Assembly: GCF_040361275.1 (NCBI RefSeq)
Contig: NZ_APNH01000002.1
Span: 868,001-932,000 of the forward strand
DNA: 64,000 nucleotides
DNA from: Salinisphaera sp. T31B1
Lineage (GTDB): Bacteria; Pseudomonadota; Gammaproteobacteria; Nevskiales; Salinisphaeraceae
Reading direction: 5' to 3'
Part shown: positions 26,124-33,798 of the stretch, in pieces
Position numbering within the stretch: the stretch's first letter is position 1
How the letters are laid out: every line of letters starts with the position of its first letter
The notes under the pieces: generated by a model
Told to the model about the DNA's origin: nothing
The model's input: only the letters and a program-made list of their open reading frames with translations
Database searches by the model: none
Position numbers and translations under genes: made by a program

Positions 26124-26396
26124 ATGACGCAGACGCAGACCGATACCGATTCTGATGCTGACGGCCAACCCCTCAGCCACTACGTCGGCGCCAGTCTCGA
26201 TCGCTACTTCGAATCGCTCAACGGCAGCGCGCCCCCCTGCGATCTGTATCGCATGATACTCGAACAAGTCGAGAAGCCGTTGCTCGAGCGTGTACTCGAC
26301 TACAGCCGTGGCAATCAGTCCAAAGCGGCGGCCATGCTCGGCATCAATCGCGGCACGCTTCGAAAGAAACTCCGCAGCTACGATCTCGACGGCTGA
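26124..26396 (+). CDS. fis: Fis family nucleoid-associated regulator
   Basis: This 90-aa DNA-bending protein binds as a dimer. It helps activate rRNA promoters and organises the nucleoid. The C-terminal helix-turn-helix (about residues 58-90, [24 protein letters not shown]) is nearly canonical; the N-terminal 30 residues are acidic and unlike E. coli Fis. It lies between prmA and purH, the Pseudomonas-like position. A terminator hairpin follows within 30 bp. Confidence 0.93.
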
Positions 26397-26422
26397 CCGG
26401 CCGCCGCCTACCCTGCAGACTC

Positions 26423-26444
26423 CACCCGCGCCGCGGGTGTTTTT
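26423..26444 (+). terminator. Rho-independent terminator between fis and purH
   Basis: CACCCGC (26423-26429) pairs with GCGGGTG (26433-26439) around a GCC loop, followed by five T. It lies only 25 bp before the purH start, so it would either separate purH from fis or act as an attenuator in the purH leader. Confidence 0.75.
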
Positions 26445-26469
26445 ATTTCAACCGGACCCATCGCCTACC

Positions 26470-28077
26470 GTGACTTCGACCACCGATCGCCCCGCCCAGC
26501 CTATTCGTCGCGCTTTGATCAGCGTGTCTGACAAGACCGGCGTCGCCGAATTCGCGCGCGCGCTCAGCGCCGACCACGGCGTCGAGATACTCTCCACGGG
26601 CGGCACGGCCCGCGCCCTGCGCGACGCCGGCGTGGCCGTCATCGACGTCGCCGACCATACCGGCGCCCCGGAAATCATGGACGGCCGCGTCAAGACGCTG
26701 CACCCGAAGATTCATGGCGGCATTCTCGGTCGCCGAGGCATCGATGACACAGTCATGGCCGAACAGCAGATCGCACCGATCGATCTGGTGGTGGTCAATC
26801 TATACCCGTTCGAACAAACCATCGCGCGGCCGGAGACCACGCGCGACCAGGCCATCGAAACCATCGACATCGGCGGACCGGCGATGCTGCGCGCCGCCGC
26901 CAAGAACCACGCCTTCGTTACACTGGTGGTCGATTCGGTCGACTACGACGCGGTGCTTGCCGATATGCAGGCGCACGGCGGGGCCACCACCCTATCCACC
27001 CGGGAGCGTCTGGCGGCCAAGGGTTTTGCGCACACTGCCGGCTACGACCACGCCATTGCTACGTACCTGTCGGACGCCGCCGACAGCGCCGGCAACGATA
27101 CCGATGATGCCGTCTTGCCGAGTCGCTTCGCGCCCAGTTACGAACGACGGAGGACGCTGCGTTACGGCGAGAACCCGCACCAGCGGGCCGCGCTCTATGC
27201 GGCCGCCGAACCGGTCGCGGGCAGTCTGGTCGATGCTCATGTCGTTCAGGGAAAGGCCCTGTCCTACAACAATCTGGCCGATGCCGACGCCGCGCTGGCC
27301 TGTGTCCGTGCGTTCGATCAGGCACCGGCGTGTGTGATCGTCAAACATGCCAACCCCTGCGGTGTAGCGGTCGCACGCAGCCTGGAACAGGCCTACGAGC
27401 GCGCGTTTGCCACCGACCCGACCTCGGCCTTCGGAGGCATTCTCGCCTTCAACCAGACGCTAGATGTGGCGACCGCCGAACGCGTTCTGGCCAATCAGTT
27501 CGCCGAGGTGATCCTCGCCCCAGCCATTGAAGACGCGGCCCTGGCCCTGTTCGCCCGGAAGAAGAATCTACGCGTGATCGCCACCGGCGAGGCGGCGGCC
27601 GGCCGGCCAAGCGAACCGGCCATCAAGCAGATCGCCGGCGGTCTGCTGGTTCAGGACGCCGACGAGCAGCTGCTAGACGATCAGCAGCTTCGTATCGTCA
27701 CCGAGGCCCAGCCCGACGGCAGTCAGCTGCAGGATCTGATGTTCGCCTGGCGGGTAGCCAAGTTCGTTAAATCCAACGCCATCGTCTATGCGCGCGACGG
27801 CGCGACCGTCGGCGTCGGCGCCGGCCAGATGAGCCGCGTCGATTCGGCCCGCATCGCGGGCCTGAAGGCCGCCGATGCCGGGCTCGACGTGGCCGGCTCG
27901 GTCATGGCCTCCGATGCGTTCTTCCCGTTCCGGGATGGTCTCGACGCCGCAGCGAAGGTCGGCGTGAAGGCGGTCATTCAACCGGGCGGATCGATTCGCG
28001 ACGAGGAGGTAATCGCAGCCGCCGACGAGGCCGGGATTGCCATGCTGTTCACGGGCGTTCGCCACTTCCGTCACTGA
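26470..28077 (+). CDS. purH: Bifunctional AICAR transformylase/IMP cyclohydrolase
   Basis: PurH performs the last two steps of IMP synthesis. The N-terminal MGS-like cyclohydrolase domain ([17 protein letters not shown], then [14 protein letters not shown]) is followed by the C-terminal AICAR formyltransferase domain ([16 protein letters not shown]-free [11 protein letters not shown] segment). At 535 aa it has usual length. I chose the GTG at 26470; the frame is open upstream through the fis gene, but that part is not PurH-like. No clear ribosome binding site is visible in front. Confidence 0.95.
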
Positions 28078-28252
28078 TATTTCAGATAGTTGACGCGCAC
28101 GGCCTGTGCGCTGACGTTGCCCGGCCGCGCGCGCTGCCTTGCGGCAACCGCGAAATCCATGTTACCCCTGACCGACCGGTCGAGCGATTGACCGTTTCGA
28201 TAACTATAAATAGTCACGACGGTTGCAGACCGTCGGTCAGGGGAGATAACCC
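28078..28252 (+). promoter_or_regulatory. Structured leader of the copper-radical oxidase gene
   Basis: This 175-bp gap holds several inverted repeats. A 12-bp perfect repeat (CCCCTGACCGAC, 28165-28176; GTCGGTCAGGGG, 28232-28243) extends outward as GTTA (28161-28164)/TAAC (28247-28250). The right arm contains the oxidase ribosome binding site (GGGGAG), 7 nt before the ATG. Within the arms are two palindromes (28173-28182 and 28228-28238) flanking an AT-rich stretch with TATAAA at 28205-28210. A competing hairpin, CGACGGT (28217-28223)/ACCGTCG (28229-28235), shares the right arm. A further hairpin, GCGCAC/GTGCGC at 28095-28111, lies just after purH and has no T-run. Confidence 0.6.
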
Positions 28253-30805
28253 ATGCGTCTGACTCCTTCCGCCGCCACGGCGACCCTCGTGTTCGTGGCG
28301 TTCAGCGCGCCGGCCTCCGCCGGCCTTCTGGGCGATCTGCTCGCCCCTGTCACTGAGCCGGACTCGACCCGTCCGAGCGAGACCATCCGCACCGATGACG
28401 CATCAGAGCGCTCGCCCGAGAAGGTCGGTCGCTTCAGCACACCGTTTGCCGAGCCCACCATCGTTGTGGACGGTCAGGCCATGGCCACTGATGAACGCTG
28501 TCTTCCCAATGCCGAAGGGATGCTCAGCTGCAAGCCGGCGGCCGGCACGGTCGCCAATCTCGGTGACGGCCGATTCGTATACCTGAACGCGCTTGAAGGC
28601 ACCGAGAACGTCGAGCTGTCGATCGTCGCCGAATTCGGCGAGGTGTCGGTCAACGACCAGTCGCGGGTACTCACACTGGATGACGAAGACCGCCCGAGCT
28701 GGAGCCGGCCCGATCCGGTCGACGGCGGCGCCAATCCCGACGGTGCCGACAGTACGACGCTGTCCGGTGCGCTGACCGGCGTGCCCGAGGGCCTGCTGGA
28801 CACGGCCGACAATACGGCCAAGAACGACGGCGCACTGTTCTGTGCCGACGTCACGTTCCTGGCTGACGGCCGGATGATGGCGGTCGGCGGCACCGATTAC
28901 TACACCGAACCCGGTGTCGACGGACTGCCGGTGGGCGTAGTCGAGCTAGAGGGGCTCAAGGCTTCGCGCATCTTCGATCCGGAAACCGAGACCTGGTCGC
29001 AGAGCGGCGATATGCGCTACGGGCGCTGGTACCCGTCACTGGTCACCCTGGCCAATGGCGATGTGTTCGTGGCCAGCGGGGTGACCAAGCTGCTCAAGCC
29101 GGTCTATCCCGAACAGCCACTCAATTCCGGGCGTAACGTGGTCCAGACCGAGACCTACGATCTTGACAGCGGCACCTGGTCAGAAAACGGCGGCCCCGCC
29201 CAGCGCTCGCTGCCCTTGTTCCCCCGTATGCATCTGCTGCCCAACGGCCAGGTGTTCTATAACGCCGGGGGCCAGGCCTTCAATCCCTTCGGACAGGCCT
29301 ACGATCAGGCGTTGTGGAATATTGTCGCCGCCTACGATCCCGACAGCCAGCAATGGACCGATCTCGGCTACGCCGGCCTGCCGCTCAAGCTCAACGAGGT
29401 TGGACTGGGCGCACTGGCCAGCACGCTCAACGTGACCAACCTGAATGCCGGCCAGGTGCAGCGACTGCTTGGCGATCTGGTCGGTCAGACCCTGGCCAAC
29501 CCGACCGGGTTGATCGAAGGACTGCTGGATACGCCGATCGACGGCCGTGCGCTCGAGCGGGCGATCGGCTCGGGCATGCGTGGCTCCACGTTCTCCGCGA
29601 TGTTGCCGCTACGCCCCGATGCCAACGGTGGTTATCACGACGCACGCTTTCTGACCGCCGGGGGCGTACCGACCTATGTCACCGTGGGCAGCCCGGGCGG
29701 TTACCTGCCGATCTCTTCGTCGCGTATCGACACGGTGCATGTCGACGGCGACACCATGGAGTACAGCTCCGAGCTCACCGGCCCGCTCAACGAACCGCGC
29801 TGGTACAGCTATTCAGTGGTCATGCCCGACGACAGCGTGATGATTTTTTCCGGCGGCAACCGCGACGGCGTCGTGTTGCCGGGCCTGGAGGGCGCCTATC
29901 GCCAGGCGGAGCGCTTCGATCCGACCACCGGCAACTGGACTCCGATGGCCGTGGCCCATCGCAAGCGGACCTACCACAACACCGCGCTGCTGATGCCCGA
30001 CGGCCGTGTGCTGGTCGGCGGCCATTCTCCGATCAACACGGCTTATCTGTCTTTCATCAACCTCGACCAACTGGGGCTGGCCGACTACCAGAGCCGTGAC
30101 CCATCGTTCGAGATCTATACTCCGCCCTATGCGATGCGTGACGATCGCCCGGTAATCGACAGCGCGCCGAGCGAACTGCGCACCGACGGCACAACGTTCG
30201 ATGTCGCGGTGGATAGCGGCGATGTAGATCAGGCCATGCTCATCCGGCGGACCGCGACCACGCATCTGGTCGACGGCGACCAGCGCGCGGTGGTTCTGCC
30301 GATCGTCGCGCGTAGCGGCGGTCAGATCACGCTCCAGATGACCGCCAACCCGGCCGTCCTCCCGGCTGGTCAATACATGCTGTTCGTCAGCCGCGAAGCT
30401 GATGACGGCATGCGCCTGCCGTCCGAGTCCACCCCGGTGGCAATACTGCCTGGTCAGGATGACGCGCCCATCGTTCAGCCCGCGCCGGTGGTGACTTCGG
30501 GCGAGGCTAACCACGGACTGGTCGGCAGCCTGCTCGGCAAGATCGGTGAAGTCGGCCGGATCGGCGACACCGACGGCGTGTCGCCCTTGCTGCCGGTCAC
30601 CGACCTGCTTTCGGGCGTGACCAGCGTCATTCCCGGGCCGCAGACGCTGATCGAAGGCGCACCGGGTACGGCAGGTGAACTCGCAGGTGCGCTACAGCGG
30701 GGCGCCGACATCGGCCGGGACACCGCGGCCAGTACACCGGACGCCGTACGTGGCCTGGCCGAGGATGCTCAGCGCGCGGGCCAGACCGGCGGCGAAGCCC
30801 CGTGA
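28253..30805 (+). CDS. Secreted copper-radical oxidase (glyoxal/galactose oxidase-like)
   Basis: This 850-aa exported protein has a signal peptide (about residues 1-23) and a Kelch-type beta-propeller followed by an E-set domain. The family active site can be placed: C197 (ALFCADVTF) and Y260 (GRWYPS) for the Cys-Tyr cofactor, Y574-H575 (RTYHNTALLMPDGRV), and H671 (TTHLVDGDQR). Spacings of 63 and 96 residues agree with fungal glyoxal oxidase; the Y260-Y574 gap is about 70 longer, owing to a helical insert near residues 378-450. A tail of about 115 residues (735-850) is unassigned. Such enzymes oxidise aldehydes or primary alcohols to yield H2O2. The substrate here is unknown. The stop overlaps the next gene by 4 bp. 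Confidence 0.82.
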   Translation: MRLTPSAATATLVFVAFSAPASAGLLGDLLAPVTEPDSTRPSETIRTDDASERSPEKVGRFSTPFAEPTIVVDGQAMATDERCLPNAEGMLSCKPAAGTVANLGDGRFVYLNALEGTENVELSIVAEFGEVSVNDQSRVLTLDDEDRPSWSRPDPVDGGANPDGADSTTLSGALTGVPEGLLDTADNTAKNDGALFCADVTFLADGRMMAVGGTDYYTEPGVDGLPVGVVELEGLKASRIFDPETETWSQSGDMRYGRWYPSLVTLANGDVFVASGVTKLLKPVYPEQPLNSGRNVVQTETYDLDSGTWSENGGPAQRSLPLFPRMHLLPNGQVFYNAGGQAFNPFGQAYDQALWNIVAAYDPDSQQWTDLGYAGLPLKLNEVGLGALASTLNVTNLNAGQVQRLLGDLVGQTLANPTGLIEGLLDTPIDGRALERAIGSGMRGSTFSAMLPLRPDANGGYHDARFLTAGGVPTYVTVGSPGGYLPISSSRIDTVHVDGDTMEYSSELTGPLNEPRWYSYSVVMPDDSVMIFSGGNRDGVVLPGLEGAYRQAERFDPTTGNWTPMAVAHRKRTYHNTALLMPDGRVLVGGHSPINTAYLSFINLDQLGLADYQSRDPSFEIYTPPYAMRDDRPVIDSAPSELRTDGTTFDVAVDSGDVDQAMLIRRTATTHLVDGDQRAVVLPIVARSGGQITLQMTANPAVLPAGQYMLFVSREADDGMRLPSESTPVAILPGQDDAPIVQPAPVVTSGEANHGLVGSLLGKIGEVGRIGDTDGVSPLLPVTDLLSGVTSVIPGPQTLIEGAPGTAGELAGALQRGADIGRDTAASTPDAVRGLAEDAQRAGQTGGEAP

Positions 30806-31821
30806 GCGGTATAGCCCCCCGGATCCGCCAGCTGATCGGAATGATCGTCCTGGCCGGGCTGCCGCTGACCGGCGTTCAGGCGCACGGCGGTGACACGGCC
30901 GGCGGCCAGGCGGAGGTACGCGCGGTACTCGATGAGCTCCCGCCGGCGTTGTCGGATCTGCGCGTGCAGCTGCGGCATACGCTGGCGGCTCAGCTGCTGG
31001 TCTACAACCCGACCGATCGGCTGCTGGTCGTCGAAGACGCGCGCGGGCGCCCCTTTTTGCGAATCGGAGCACAACGCGTGCAGGCGGATCTCGGCGCGGC
31101 GGCCTTTCATCGCACCAATACGCTGATGGCCCCCGGGGCGATCGATGCCGATGCCTCGAGTCGACCCGATTGGCAGGTCGTCGAGTCGACGCCCAGCTGG
31201 GGCTGGTTCGATCTGCGGCTGCGCAGTGATTCGATCGCGGTACCCCATCACGTCGTGGATGGCGGTCAGCCGCGTTCGGTGGCGCGCTGGTCAATCCCGG
31301 TGCGCTATGGCAGCCAGCGCAGCGCGATCCGTGGGCACTTCGAGTATGTCCCGCCGGCGCGCGGCATGATCGAGGCCCGGGTCATCGACGCCGGCCTGCT
31401 CGACGGCCAAGCCGTTGTCCGTGCGATGACGGGCAGCGCGCGGCCCGGGTTGTTCGTGTCCTATCGCGGCACGGAGCCGCTGATCGTGCTCGATGCCGAC
31501 GGCGCGCCGTTTCTACGCTTTTCGGAGACGGGCGTCGACGCCAATCGCGCGAGCGCGACCTGGGCGCGTGTACGCCCATCGGGCGCGCCGGCCGCCACGC
31601 CCGACAGCACGCCGGCGGTGGCCTGGGCGCGTGTATCGTCGACCGGCAGCTACGGCTGGATCGAACCGCGTGCGGCGGCCGACGCGCCGGCACACGATGG
31701 CCACGATCTGGCCGTAGTCAAGCGTTGGCGCATTCCGGTACGTATCGGCACGATGGACAGTTCGATCAGCGGCCAGACCGAATGGGCGCCCATCGCTCCG
31801 GCGGCCGCATCTCACCACTAG
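30802..31821 (+). CDS. Secreted two-repeat protein coupled to the copper-radical oxidase
   Basis: This 339-aa protein begins at a GTG overlapping the oxidase stop and has a signal peptide ending near QA/HGG (residue 27). It is made of two copies of one domain. Copy 1 is about residues 55-184 (LLVVEDARGRPFLRIG, SWGWFDLRL, ARWSIPVRYG, HFEYVPP). Copy 2 is about 190-330 (LIVLDADGAPFLRFSE, SYGWIEPR, KRWRIPVRIG, QTEWAP). The C-terminus ends SHH, and HDGHD occurs at 298-302. I recall similar single domains in actinobacterial exported proteins but cannot name the family. A role in copper delivery to, or anchoring of, the oxidase is inference from context. Confidence 0.72.
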   Translation: MSGIAPRIRQLIGMIVLAGLPLTGVQAHGGDTAGGQAEVRAVLDELPPALSDLRVQLRHTLAAQLLVYNPTDRLLVVEDARGRPFLRIGAQRVQADLGAAAFHRTNTLMAPGAIDADASSRPDWQVVESTPSWGWFDLRLRSDSIAVPHHVVDGGQPRSVARWSIPVRYGSQRSAIRGHFEYVPPARGMIEARVIDAGLLDGQAVVRAMTGSARPGLFVSYRGTEPLIVLDADGAPFLRFSETGVDANRASATWARVRPSGAPAATPDSTPAVAWARVSSTGSYGWIEPRAAADAPAHDGHDLAVVKRWRIPVRIGTMDSSISGQTEWAPIAPAAASHH

Positions 31822-31823
31822 AG

Positions 31824-31844
31824 GCCGGCGCCGAAGGCGCCGGC
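31824..31844. terminator. Hairpin between convergent genes, terminator-like
   Basis: GCCGGCGCC and GGCGCCGGC form a perfect 9-bp stem with a GAA loop just after the stop of the two-repeat protein. There is only a weak T-rich tail (AACTCTTCT), so termination strength is uncertain. Confidence 0.45.
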
Positions 31845-31852
31845 AACTCTTC

Positions 31853-32269
31853 TCAACCAGCGGCCGACAGCAGCGTCACCACGACTTCCCGGCGATGTGG
31901 CGCACTCCGGTGCTCGTAGAGATAGATTCCCTGCCAGGTTCCGAGGTTGAGCGCGCCGTCAGTGATCGGCACGCTCAGATCCATGCCGGTCAGAATGCTG
32001 CGGATATGGCCGGGCATATCGTCCGGGCCTTCCATGTCGTGCACGAACCTCGGATCGCCATCGACTACTGCACCAGCCATCCAGCGCTCGACGTCGGCAC
32101 GCACATCCGGGTCGGCGTTCTCGCAGATCATCAGCGACGCCGAGGTATGCCGGATGAAGACATGAGCCACCCCGGTGCACAGCCCGGCATCACTGACCAC
32201 GCGTCCGACGTCTGCGGTGATGTCACGGGTCGACCGGCCGGGCGTATCGAACGTCAGCGTTGTCTGCAT
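31853..32269 (-). CDS. yjbQ: YjbQ family protein (UPF0047, secondary thiamine-phosphate synthase-like)
   Basis: This 138-aa protein is a single UPF0047 domain. Characteristic segments include VFIRHTSASLMICENADPDV, HDMEGPDDMPGHIRS and GTWQGIYLYEHR with conserved His residues that bind metal in solved relatives. A weak thiamine-phosphate synthase activity is reported for the family, but the physiological role is open. It is convergent with the oxidase pair and separated from gatB by 62 bp on the same strand. Confidence 0.9.
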   Translation of the reverse strand: MQTTLTFDTPGRSTRDITADVGRVVSDAGLCTGVAHVFIRHTSASLMICENADPDVRADVERWMAGAVVDGDPRFVHDMEGPDDMPGHIRSILTGMDLSVPITDGALNLGTWQGIYLYEHRSAPHRREVVVTLLSAAG

Positions 32270-32331
32270 CGGCTTCCTCTACGGGCAGGCGACTGTTTGT
32301 TCGGCCGAGCCCGGCCGCATTCTCGACAGGG

Positions 32332-33794
32332 TCAGGCCAGCGCGTCCAGCTTGGCCACCATCAACTGATTGACCTCTTTCGGGTTGGCCTTGCCCTTGGA
32401 TGCCTTCATGACCTGCCCCACCAAAAACCCGAGAATCTTGGTCTTGCCGTCCAGATACTGCTGGACCTGATCCGGGTTGTCGGTGATGGCGGCATCGACG
32501 AAGGCTTCGATCGCCGAGCTGTCGGTGATCTGCTTGAGCCCACGATCGGCGATGATGGCGTCCGCACTTTCGCCCTCACCGGCCGCCAGCGCATCGAATA
32601 CGTCCTTGGCGATCTTGCCGGAAATGGTGTTGTCGGCAATACGGGCCAACAGCCCGCCCAGCTGCTCGGCGCTGACCGGCGCCTCTGTGATCGGTCGACT
32701 TAGGCGATTGAGCACCGCCGTGAGCTCGCTGTTGATCCAGTTCGCCGCCGGCTTGCCCTGTACCGACGGCACACCACCGGTCGCGGCGACGGTCGCCTCG
32801 AAATAATCCGCCAGCGCGCGGGAGTCGGTCAGCGCCATGGCGTCGGCGCCACCGAGCGCATAGTCGGACTCGAATCGACGCCGCTTGGCATCGGGCAACT
32901 CCGGCAGTGCCGTGCGTGCGGCCTCGATGAAATCCGCATCGATCGCAACCGGCAGCAGATCCGGGTCCGGGAAGTAACGATAGTCGTGCGCTTCCTCTTT
33001 GGAACGCATGCTGCGTGTTTCGTCGGCGTCCGGGTCGTAGAGGCGGGTCTCCTGAACGATCGTGCCGCCGGATTCGAGTACATCGATCTGACGCTCGACC
33101 TCGTACTCGATCGCTTTTTCCAGAAAACGGAACGAGTTGACGTTCTTGGTTTCGGTGCGCGTGCCAAATTCGCTGGTCCCGCGCGGACGCACGGACACGT
33201 TGGCATCCACGCGGAACGAGCCCTCGGCCATGTTGCCGTCGCAGATGCCCAGATAGGTGACCAGCGAATGCAGCTTGCGGGCGTAAGCCACCGCTTCGGC
33301 CGCACTGGCCATCTCGGGTTCGGAGACGCATTCCACCAGCGGCGTTCCCGCGCGATTGAGATCGATACCGGTTTCGCGATCGAAGGCTTCATGCAAGGAT
33401 TTGCCCGCATCTTCCTCCAGATGAGCGCGGGTAATGCCGATGCGCTTTTCCCCACCATCGGCCGTTGCGATATCCAAATGGCCGCGAGCCACGATCGGCA
33501 GCTCGAACTGGCTAATCTGATAGCCCTTGGGCAGATCGGGATAGAAATAGTGCTTACGCGCGAATACCGACCGCGGTGCGATCTCGGCGTCGATGGCCAG
33601 GCCGAACAGCGTGGCCATGCGAATGACCTCTGCGTTGATCACCGGCAACACGCCGGGCAAGGCGATGTCCACCGCGCTGGCCTGCGTATTCGGCGCAGCA
33701 CCGTAGGCCGTCGGCGCGCTGGAGAAGATCTTGCTCTGGGTGGCGAGCTGGATATGAACTTCGAGCCCGATCACCGTCTCCCATGCGCTCGTCA

Positions 33795-33798
<4 letters not shown>
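32332..33798 (-). CDS. gatB: Asp/Glu-tRNA(Asn/Gln) amidotransferase subunit B
   Basis: GatB binds the mischarged tRNA and, with GatA and GatC, converts Asp-tRNA(Asn) or Glu-tRNA(Gln) to the amide form. The start ([15 protein letters not shown]) and the kinase-like [11 protein letters not shown] segment are characteristic. The C-terminal YqeY-like tail ends [13 protein letters not shown]. It is 488 aa and overlaps gatA by 4 bp in the gatC-gatA-gatB operon. A second ATG one codon in is an equally good start. Confidence 0.96.

Follow-up and report, generated by a model that had tools for sequence, protein, structure and literature searches.

A copper radical oxidase gene of Salinisphaera sp. T31B1 overlaps the gene of a candidate secreted copper-handling partner

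The copper radical oxidases (CROs) include fungal glyoxal and galactose oxidases and bacterial enzymes, of which GlxA of Streptomyces (SCO2837; structures 4unm, 5lxz, and 5lqi) is the closest solved relative of the protein discussed here. GlxA carries its cross-linking cysteine at position 121 and needs the copper chaperone Sco for maturation at low copper (PMC4736821). In Proteobacteria, 22 orthologues were reported by Liman et al. 2013, who proposed transfer from fungi (PMC3543389), and Fong et al. 2024 observed that bacterial CROs lie outside the two fungal subfamilies (PMC11267884). Secreted proteins that hold copper through an N-terminal histidine are likewise described: CopC has a copper site of this kind (PMC7529816), and the "anglerase" domains bind Cu2+ with a Kd of 62-74 nM, in one case by a mono-histidine brace, as the crystal structure shows (PMC12537917). 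The present analysis concerns a stretch of 64,000 nucleotides from Salinisphaera sp. T31B1 (contig NZ_APNH01000002.1, positions 868,001 to 932,000), hereafter the window, in which a CRO gene is followed, with an overlap, by the gene of a protein from an unnamed family. The oxidase is a known kind of enzyme within a clade distinct from GlxA, and what is new is its pairing with this copper-linked partner family. On balance, we lean towards reading the overlapping genes as encoding an exported CRO and a dedicated secreted protein that handles its copper. An earlier first-pass annotation, made from the letters of the window, had rightly placed the DNA in a marine-type gammaproteobacterium; it described the oxidase and overlooked what is of greater interest, the co-encoded, unannotated partner. 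The features of the oxidase gene, all on the plus strand, are as follows, with the residues assigned by alignment.

28253 to 30805, plus strand: AA5-type copper radical oxidase gene (P0001, 850 aa), from the open reading frame (ORF) and its translation, PF09118 and Kelch matches over cut-off, and GlxA as top Protein Data Bank (PDB) match by sequence and fold
28253 to 28321, plus strand: signal-peptide-like N-terminus, residues 1-23, by eye from the translation and the alignment
28841 to 28843, plus strand: C197, predicted cross-linking cysteine, aligned with GlxA C121
29027 to 29032, plus strand: W259, aligned with GlxA W288, and Y260, predicted cross-linked tyrosine
29972 to 29977, plus strand: Y574-H575, predicted tyrosine and histidine copper ligands
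30146 to 30394, plus strand: galactose-oxidase-like E-set domain, residues 632-714 (PF09118, E 1.5e-13)
30263 to 30265, plus strand: H671, predicted second histidine copper ligand

By sequence and modelled fold, the product is a CRO. The ORF, which starts with ATG, has exactly the extent given in the first-pass annotation, whose identification of the enzyme is supported by protein families, residue alignment, and fold, the cofactor and the activity themselves being predicted. The GO-like_E_set family PF09118 matches residues 632-714 at 51.3 bits (cut-off 25), the only match to this family in the genome, and Kelch_6, Kelch_4, and Kelch_1 all score above their cut-offs; the glyoxal oxidase N-terminal family, which the first-pass annotation had proposed as a check, gave a partial match below threshold in the Pfam scan (Glyoxal_oxid_N, PF07250, 32.2 against 37.5 bits). 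Both the fold of the AA5 enzymes, a kelch propeller with a galactose-oxidase-like E-set domain, and their sequence signature, a Cys-Tyr pair with Tyr, His, and His as copper ligands, are found in the protein. The AlphaFold2 model, built on a 15-row alignment, reaches a mean pLDDT of 66.4 and a pTM of 0.71, a moderate quality, with several low-confidence stretches. Searched with Foldseek, it retrieves GlxA as the best match (5lxz, E 1.7e-34, TM 0.68 by target length), with the cofactor residues aligned. GlxA entries are also the closest solved relatives by sequence, at 111 bits with phmmer and 287 bits with a profile; a galactose oxidase from a bacterium and oxidases from fungi come next.

The N-terminus is hydrophobic and ends, by eye, in a signal-peptidase-like site between ASA and G. 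An LSAC lipobox-like motif stands at the oxidase N-terminus in two Marinobacter loci (L013 and L014) and in the order-mate genome G020 (L009), whereas the Salinisphaera oxidases begin with a plain signal-peptide-like sequence, as judged by eye. Anchored and released forms may perhaps coexist within one clade.

Six residues, C197, W259, Y260, Y574, H575, and H671, are invariant in all 15 aligned sequences, that is, the oxidase and 14 relatives drawn from Gammaproteobacteria, Chloroflexota, Actinobacteria, Acidobacteriota, and one haloarchaeon. The five cofactor residues recur in nine further gammaproteobacterial CROs, eight of which also keep the tryptophan, with a tyrosine in the ninth. Counted in alignments with 4unm, W259 faces chain residue 258 and C197 chain residue 91. 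Since the GlxA tryptophan aligned with W259 is an alanine in the entries titled W288A (5lxz and 5lqi), GlxA numbering is offset by 30, and C91 is C121. The five cofactor residues named in the first-pass annotation stand at the positions it gave and align with those of GlxA. It had also claimed the spacing of fungal glyoxal oxidase. The intervals in the Salinisphaera protein are 63 (Cys to Tyr), 314 (Tyr to Tyr), and 96 (His to His) residues. In the glyoxal oxidase (GLOX) of Phanerochaete, which has the same cofactor residue set, they are 65, 242, and 93, so that the claim is right in part, the middle interval being about 70 residues longer in the Salinisphaera protein. Taken together, residues and model make it very probable that the gene encodes a working CRO.

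The oxidase resembles GlxA in fold, E-set domain, cross-linking Cys and Tyr, copper ligands, and the Trp preceding the Tyr, at an identity of 17% in the Foldseek alignment. It differs by a longer insert before Y574, by a C-terminal extension in Salinisphaera, by its partner gene, and by the lack of a cslA-type gene among the neighbours scanned. That it might be a GlxA orthologue was considered and rejected: it scores 181.4 bits against the NF052501 equivalog, whose cut-off is 800 and which is exceeded in 5 of 198 actinobacterial genomes, and it falls in a separate, fully supported clade. The underlying tree has 43 rows (4 of 47 were dropped as duplicates), three of them with very long branches, and places the 11 partner-linked CROs in one 13-row set (support 100/100) apart from the GlxA set; the other two rows are the actinobacterial L148 and L150. 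This clade comprises Salinisphaera, Marinobacter, one order-mate, and some Actinobacteria. Among AA5_1 glyoxal oxidases, Fusarium 9n3u is matched by both sequence profile and fold, with the sub-threshold PF07250 score and the longer middle interval as differences. Galactose and alcohol oxidases (fungal AA5_2; bacterial 9g43 and 9g8h) share the core fold and the Cys, Tyr, and His positions, but the bacterial ones have Gly instead of Trp before the aligned Tyr. In galactose oxidase the stacking tryptophan, W290, lies elsewhere in the sequence.

Of the 14 genomes of the genus, counting that of the window, 7 carry a CRO close to this one. The Marinobacter relatives are 57% (L013) and 64% (L014) identical and that of G020 57%, while genome G050 has a more distant CRO. 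At least 11 of the 321 gammaproteobacterial genomes drawn (G000, G003, G020, and eight more) carry a CRO with the five checked residues; the unfiltered figure, 26 of 321, also takes in kelch-only matches and should not be read as a number of CROs. The view of the oxidase as an isolated oddity is thus rejected, and the first-pass judgement that such an enzyme is unusual in this class is weakened, all the more as Liman et al. 2013 had tallied 22 proteobacterial orthologues (PMC3543389). With proteobacterial CROs published by that date, one more is not new in itself. A full-text literature search for a Salinisphaera galactose oxidase found no paper, and one for a Marinobacter glyoxal oxidase gave, as far as listed, papers on other subjects by title.

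The features of the partner gene are these.

30802 to 31821, plus strand: partner gene (P0002, 339 aa), GTG start, signal-peptide-like start, two repeats; from the ORF and the co-occurrence of homologues
30883 to 30885, plus strand: H28, predicted first mature residue, following a signal-peptidase-compatible site (between VQA and HGGD)
30883 to 31365, plus strand: N-terminal repeat domain, from alignment and an AlphaFold2 model
31366 to 31818, plus strand: C-terminal repeat domain, from alignment

The start of the partner gene overlaps the stop of the oxidase gene by 4 bases (GTGA), an arrangement in which the two would be co-translated. In each of the seven CRO-bearing genomes of the genus, in both Marinobacter loci, and in G020, the gene immediately after the CRO is a partner homologue; taking the first start of each ORF, the junction is a 4-base overlap in eight of these ten, a 1-base overlap in G020, and a 9-base gap in L013. 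Across 61 relatives, the two genes occur together in eight genomes, a distant CRO alone in G050, and a partner alone in G015, and both genes are absent from the seven CRO-less genomes of the genus. The pairing extends to a second phylum: in the actinobacterium G396 (L092), a CRO that is 31.6% identical to that of the window and retains all six residues stops 2 bases short of a two-domain partner homologue with a TTG start and HGNEVP as its likely mature start. By title and abstract start, no paper in the mainly open-access literature searched deals with a CRO-linked partner of this sort.

The partner family has no Pfam or NCBIfam match, and a comparison with PDB sequences gave no match better than E 0.88. 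It is built of repeats of about 140 residues, two in Salinisphaera, one in Marinobacter, and two in G020, and among CRO-linked members Trp, Gly, Pro, and Arg make up most of the invariant positions. The AlphaFold2 model of the N-terminal repeat is mostly beta (pLDDT 77.9, pTM 0.75). The G020 member (L009:1-1486, minus strand, its ORF cut at the locus edge) extends at its C-terminus into a Met/His-rich stretch and one more domain (GHAHLYVDG...), to which no Pfam family matches. In all ten CRO-linked partners tested, a predicted signal-peptidase-compatible site lies directly before a histidine, and in the eleventh, from G396, a mature N-terminal His is also likely by eye. The same combination occurs in 17 of 25 family members, those passing a signal filter with the CRO-linked ones included, as opposed to 27 of the 268 proteins of the fetched loci that served as background, a contrast inflated by kinship among the sequences and obtained with a rule (any compatible site followed by His) that replaced a single-site rule after the first result.

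Further evidence comes from the 22 of 198 actinobacterial genomes that contain partner homologues, many of which end, by eye, in C-terminal membrane-like segments. The commonest Pfam families among their neighbours are CopC (8 of 87) and CopD (7 of 87), with two of DUF1775, which we take to be the YcnI family; this tally rests on 87 neighbours at 20 loci picked by eye from 132 candidate ORFs. A distance test independent of that choice agrees. In the 22 genomes, a search for CopC returned 43 places. Of 24 partner homologues, 12 have a CopC domain at a distance of 7 kb or less, where 0.19 would be expected, and 9 have one at 3 kb or less, where 0.086 would be expected, assuming uniform placement and rounded genome sizes. 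The actinobacterial homologues of the partner thus often adjoin CopC and CopD genes, and the partner shares with CopC and other histidine-brace proteins the predicted N-terminal His after cleavage, but it has no PF04234 match (in the window's member and the others scanned), no PDB fold match, and no conserved second His. With the anglerases Ang-1 and Ang-2 and with DUF4198 and DUF6702 (PMC12537917), it shares a secreted domain with a predicted mature N-terminal His; unlike them, it has neither HupE/UreJ_2 (PF13795) nor these DUFs in the 12 members scanned with Pfam, and is linked to a CRO or to CopC instead. Assignment of the partner to CopC, to DUF4198-like proteins, or to HupE/UreJ-linked anglerases was accordingly rejected for want of a family match.

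Given the anglerase precedent and the dependence of GlxA on Sco, the locus is most simply read as coding for an exported CRO together with a copper-handling protein of its own. The oxidase would be exported through its signal peptide and would bind one copper at Y260, Y574, H575, and H671; copper and O2 would then drive formation of the C197-Y260 thioether cross-link beside W259, and the mature enzyme would oxidize a primary alcohol or an aldehyde outside the cytoplasm with O2, releasing H2O2. Signal peptidase would trim the partner so that histidine becomes its first residue, and the partner would hold copper through this residue and either pass it to the oxidase or keep it available. That the partner handles copper in some way is fairly probable; that it acts directly in maturation of the oxidase falls slightly short of an even chance. 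More tentative is the proposal that it is a dedicated CRO metallochaperone, from an unnamed secreted family with a fold that has no PDB match, whose single N-terminal His captures copper and starts the Cys-Tyr cross-link, and whose single-domain, often membrane-anchored actinobacterial homologues would do similar copper work beside CopC and CopD.

Several results weigh against a copper-handling role dedicated to the oxidase. The model of the N-terminal repeat matches no PDB fold at E <= 0.001 and is of low confidence over its first seven residues. The first, cruder cleavage rule placed His at +1 in 4 of 25 family members and 4 of 268 background proteins; it was replaced because it picked early sites in alanine-rich signal peptides. 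Apart from the N-terminal His, the ten CRO-linked partners share no invariant His, Cys, or Met, and the one internal His kept in the seven same-genus partners is a Tyr in G020, so that a classical two-His brace is not expected. Twelve of the 24 actinobacterial homologues, including some that lie on short contigs, have no CopC within 7 kb. No partner was detected in the genomes of L148 and L150, although both CROs belong to the clade; that of L150 (L150:1489-3417, minus strand, genome G504) groups closely with it (748.6 bits to profile A2), and the 1.5 kb downstream contain no partner gene. Of nine other gammaproteobacterial CRO loci fetched, one contig consists entirely of CRO and has no neighbours, and among the 26 neighbour proteins of the other eight, no family occurs more than once and no copper family is shared. 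Finally, G015 keeps a partner with no CRO detected. Placed immediately behind purH and ahead of UPF0047 and gatB, this partner (L111:6444-7400, minus strand) takes up the position of the pair in the window, so G015 has probably lost its oxidase; the product has no His after the likely cleavage site, and in this one case the loss of the oxidase looks to have been accompanied by loss of the partner histidine.

Among the alternatives, the one that fares best, though we consider it unlikely, is that the oxidase is loaded by Sco or by free periplasmic copper and that the partner has a structural or targeting role, holding the enzyme to the outer membrane or to its substrate. The genome of the window does encode Sco, on another contig, which could load the oxidase alone, and it has no CopC match. 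A strong match to Sco (SCO1-SenC; for example, G000:C3:464018-464410) is present in six of the seven CRO-bearing and one of the seven CRO-less genomes of the genus, a difference that kinship may explain. The two repeats of the partner, mostly beta in the model, and the split of the clade into lipobox-like and plain signal-peptide oxidases would also suit such a role, which leaves unexplained, however, the CopC/CopD linkage of the actinobacterial homologues and the conserved N-terminal His. If the partner does handle copper for the oxidase, it could complement or replace the Sco route.

Less probable still is a protective partner, one that binds copper released from the oxidase or limits damage by copper or H2O2 and does not feed the enzyme. 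Actinobacterial homologues beside CopC and CopD, which are copper resistance or uptake genes, agree with this, and an N-terminal copper site is predicted under either role, but the joint absence of the pair from the seven CRO-less genomes fits a need for the oxidase better than it fits general copper defence. The two genes might also have come together by chance and been inherited as an operon within a single lineage, with no functional link. The solitary partner of G015 speaks for this, and as the partner-linked oxidases form one clade, few independent events stand behind the association. Yet the pair occurs in differing contexts, after purH in Salinisphaera and, in G020, on a different contig from purH, and again in an actinobacterium; we regard an accident as quite improbable. 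That the oxidase is catalytically dead or no copper enzyme, and serves as a kelch adhesion protein, could appeal to the low-confidence stretches of its model and is very hard to reconcile with the conservation of its active site, invariant in 15 of 15 sequences and, for the five residues, in nine more.

The favoured reading, a CRO with its own copper-handling partner, bears on how such enzymes acquire their metal. To our knowledge, the copper supply of a bacterial CRO has been worked out for one case only, that of GlxA, with Sco and DtpA. With one gene overlapping or adjoining the other in two phyla, oxidase and partner offer a small and directly testable pair. Should the partner bind copper, a role would be found for a family to which our searches assigned no Pfam or NCBIfam entry and which often lies beside CopC and CopD in Actinobacteria. 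A bacterial CRO that tolerates salt and brings its own helper could also make such biocatalysts easier to produce in bacteria.

The immediate neighbours of the pair are the following.

26290 to 28077, plus strand: purH, upstream neighbour (TIGR00355, 723 bits)
31853 to 32269, minus strand: UPF0047 gene, convergent and directly downstream of the pair (PF01894, 131 bits)
32332 to 33798, minus strand: gatB (NF004014, 755 bits)

The neighbours scanned were accC, prmA, and purH upstream and UPF0047, gatB, gatA, mreB, and mreC downstream, among which, as the first-pass annotation had said, there is no polysaccharide synthase. A promoter scan of positions 27900 to 32400 found no sigma-70-like site, an uninformative outcome. 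At the other gammaproteobacterial CRO loci (L112-L120), the neighbours include one match each to HupE_UreJ_2, CCP_MauG (a di-haem peroxidase), and an E1-E2 ATPase, which are possible metal or peroxide partners of those CROs.

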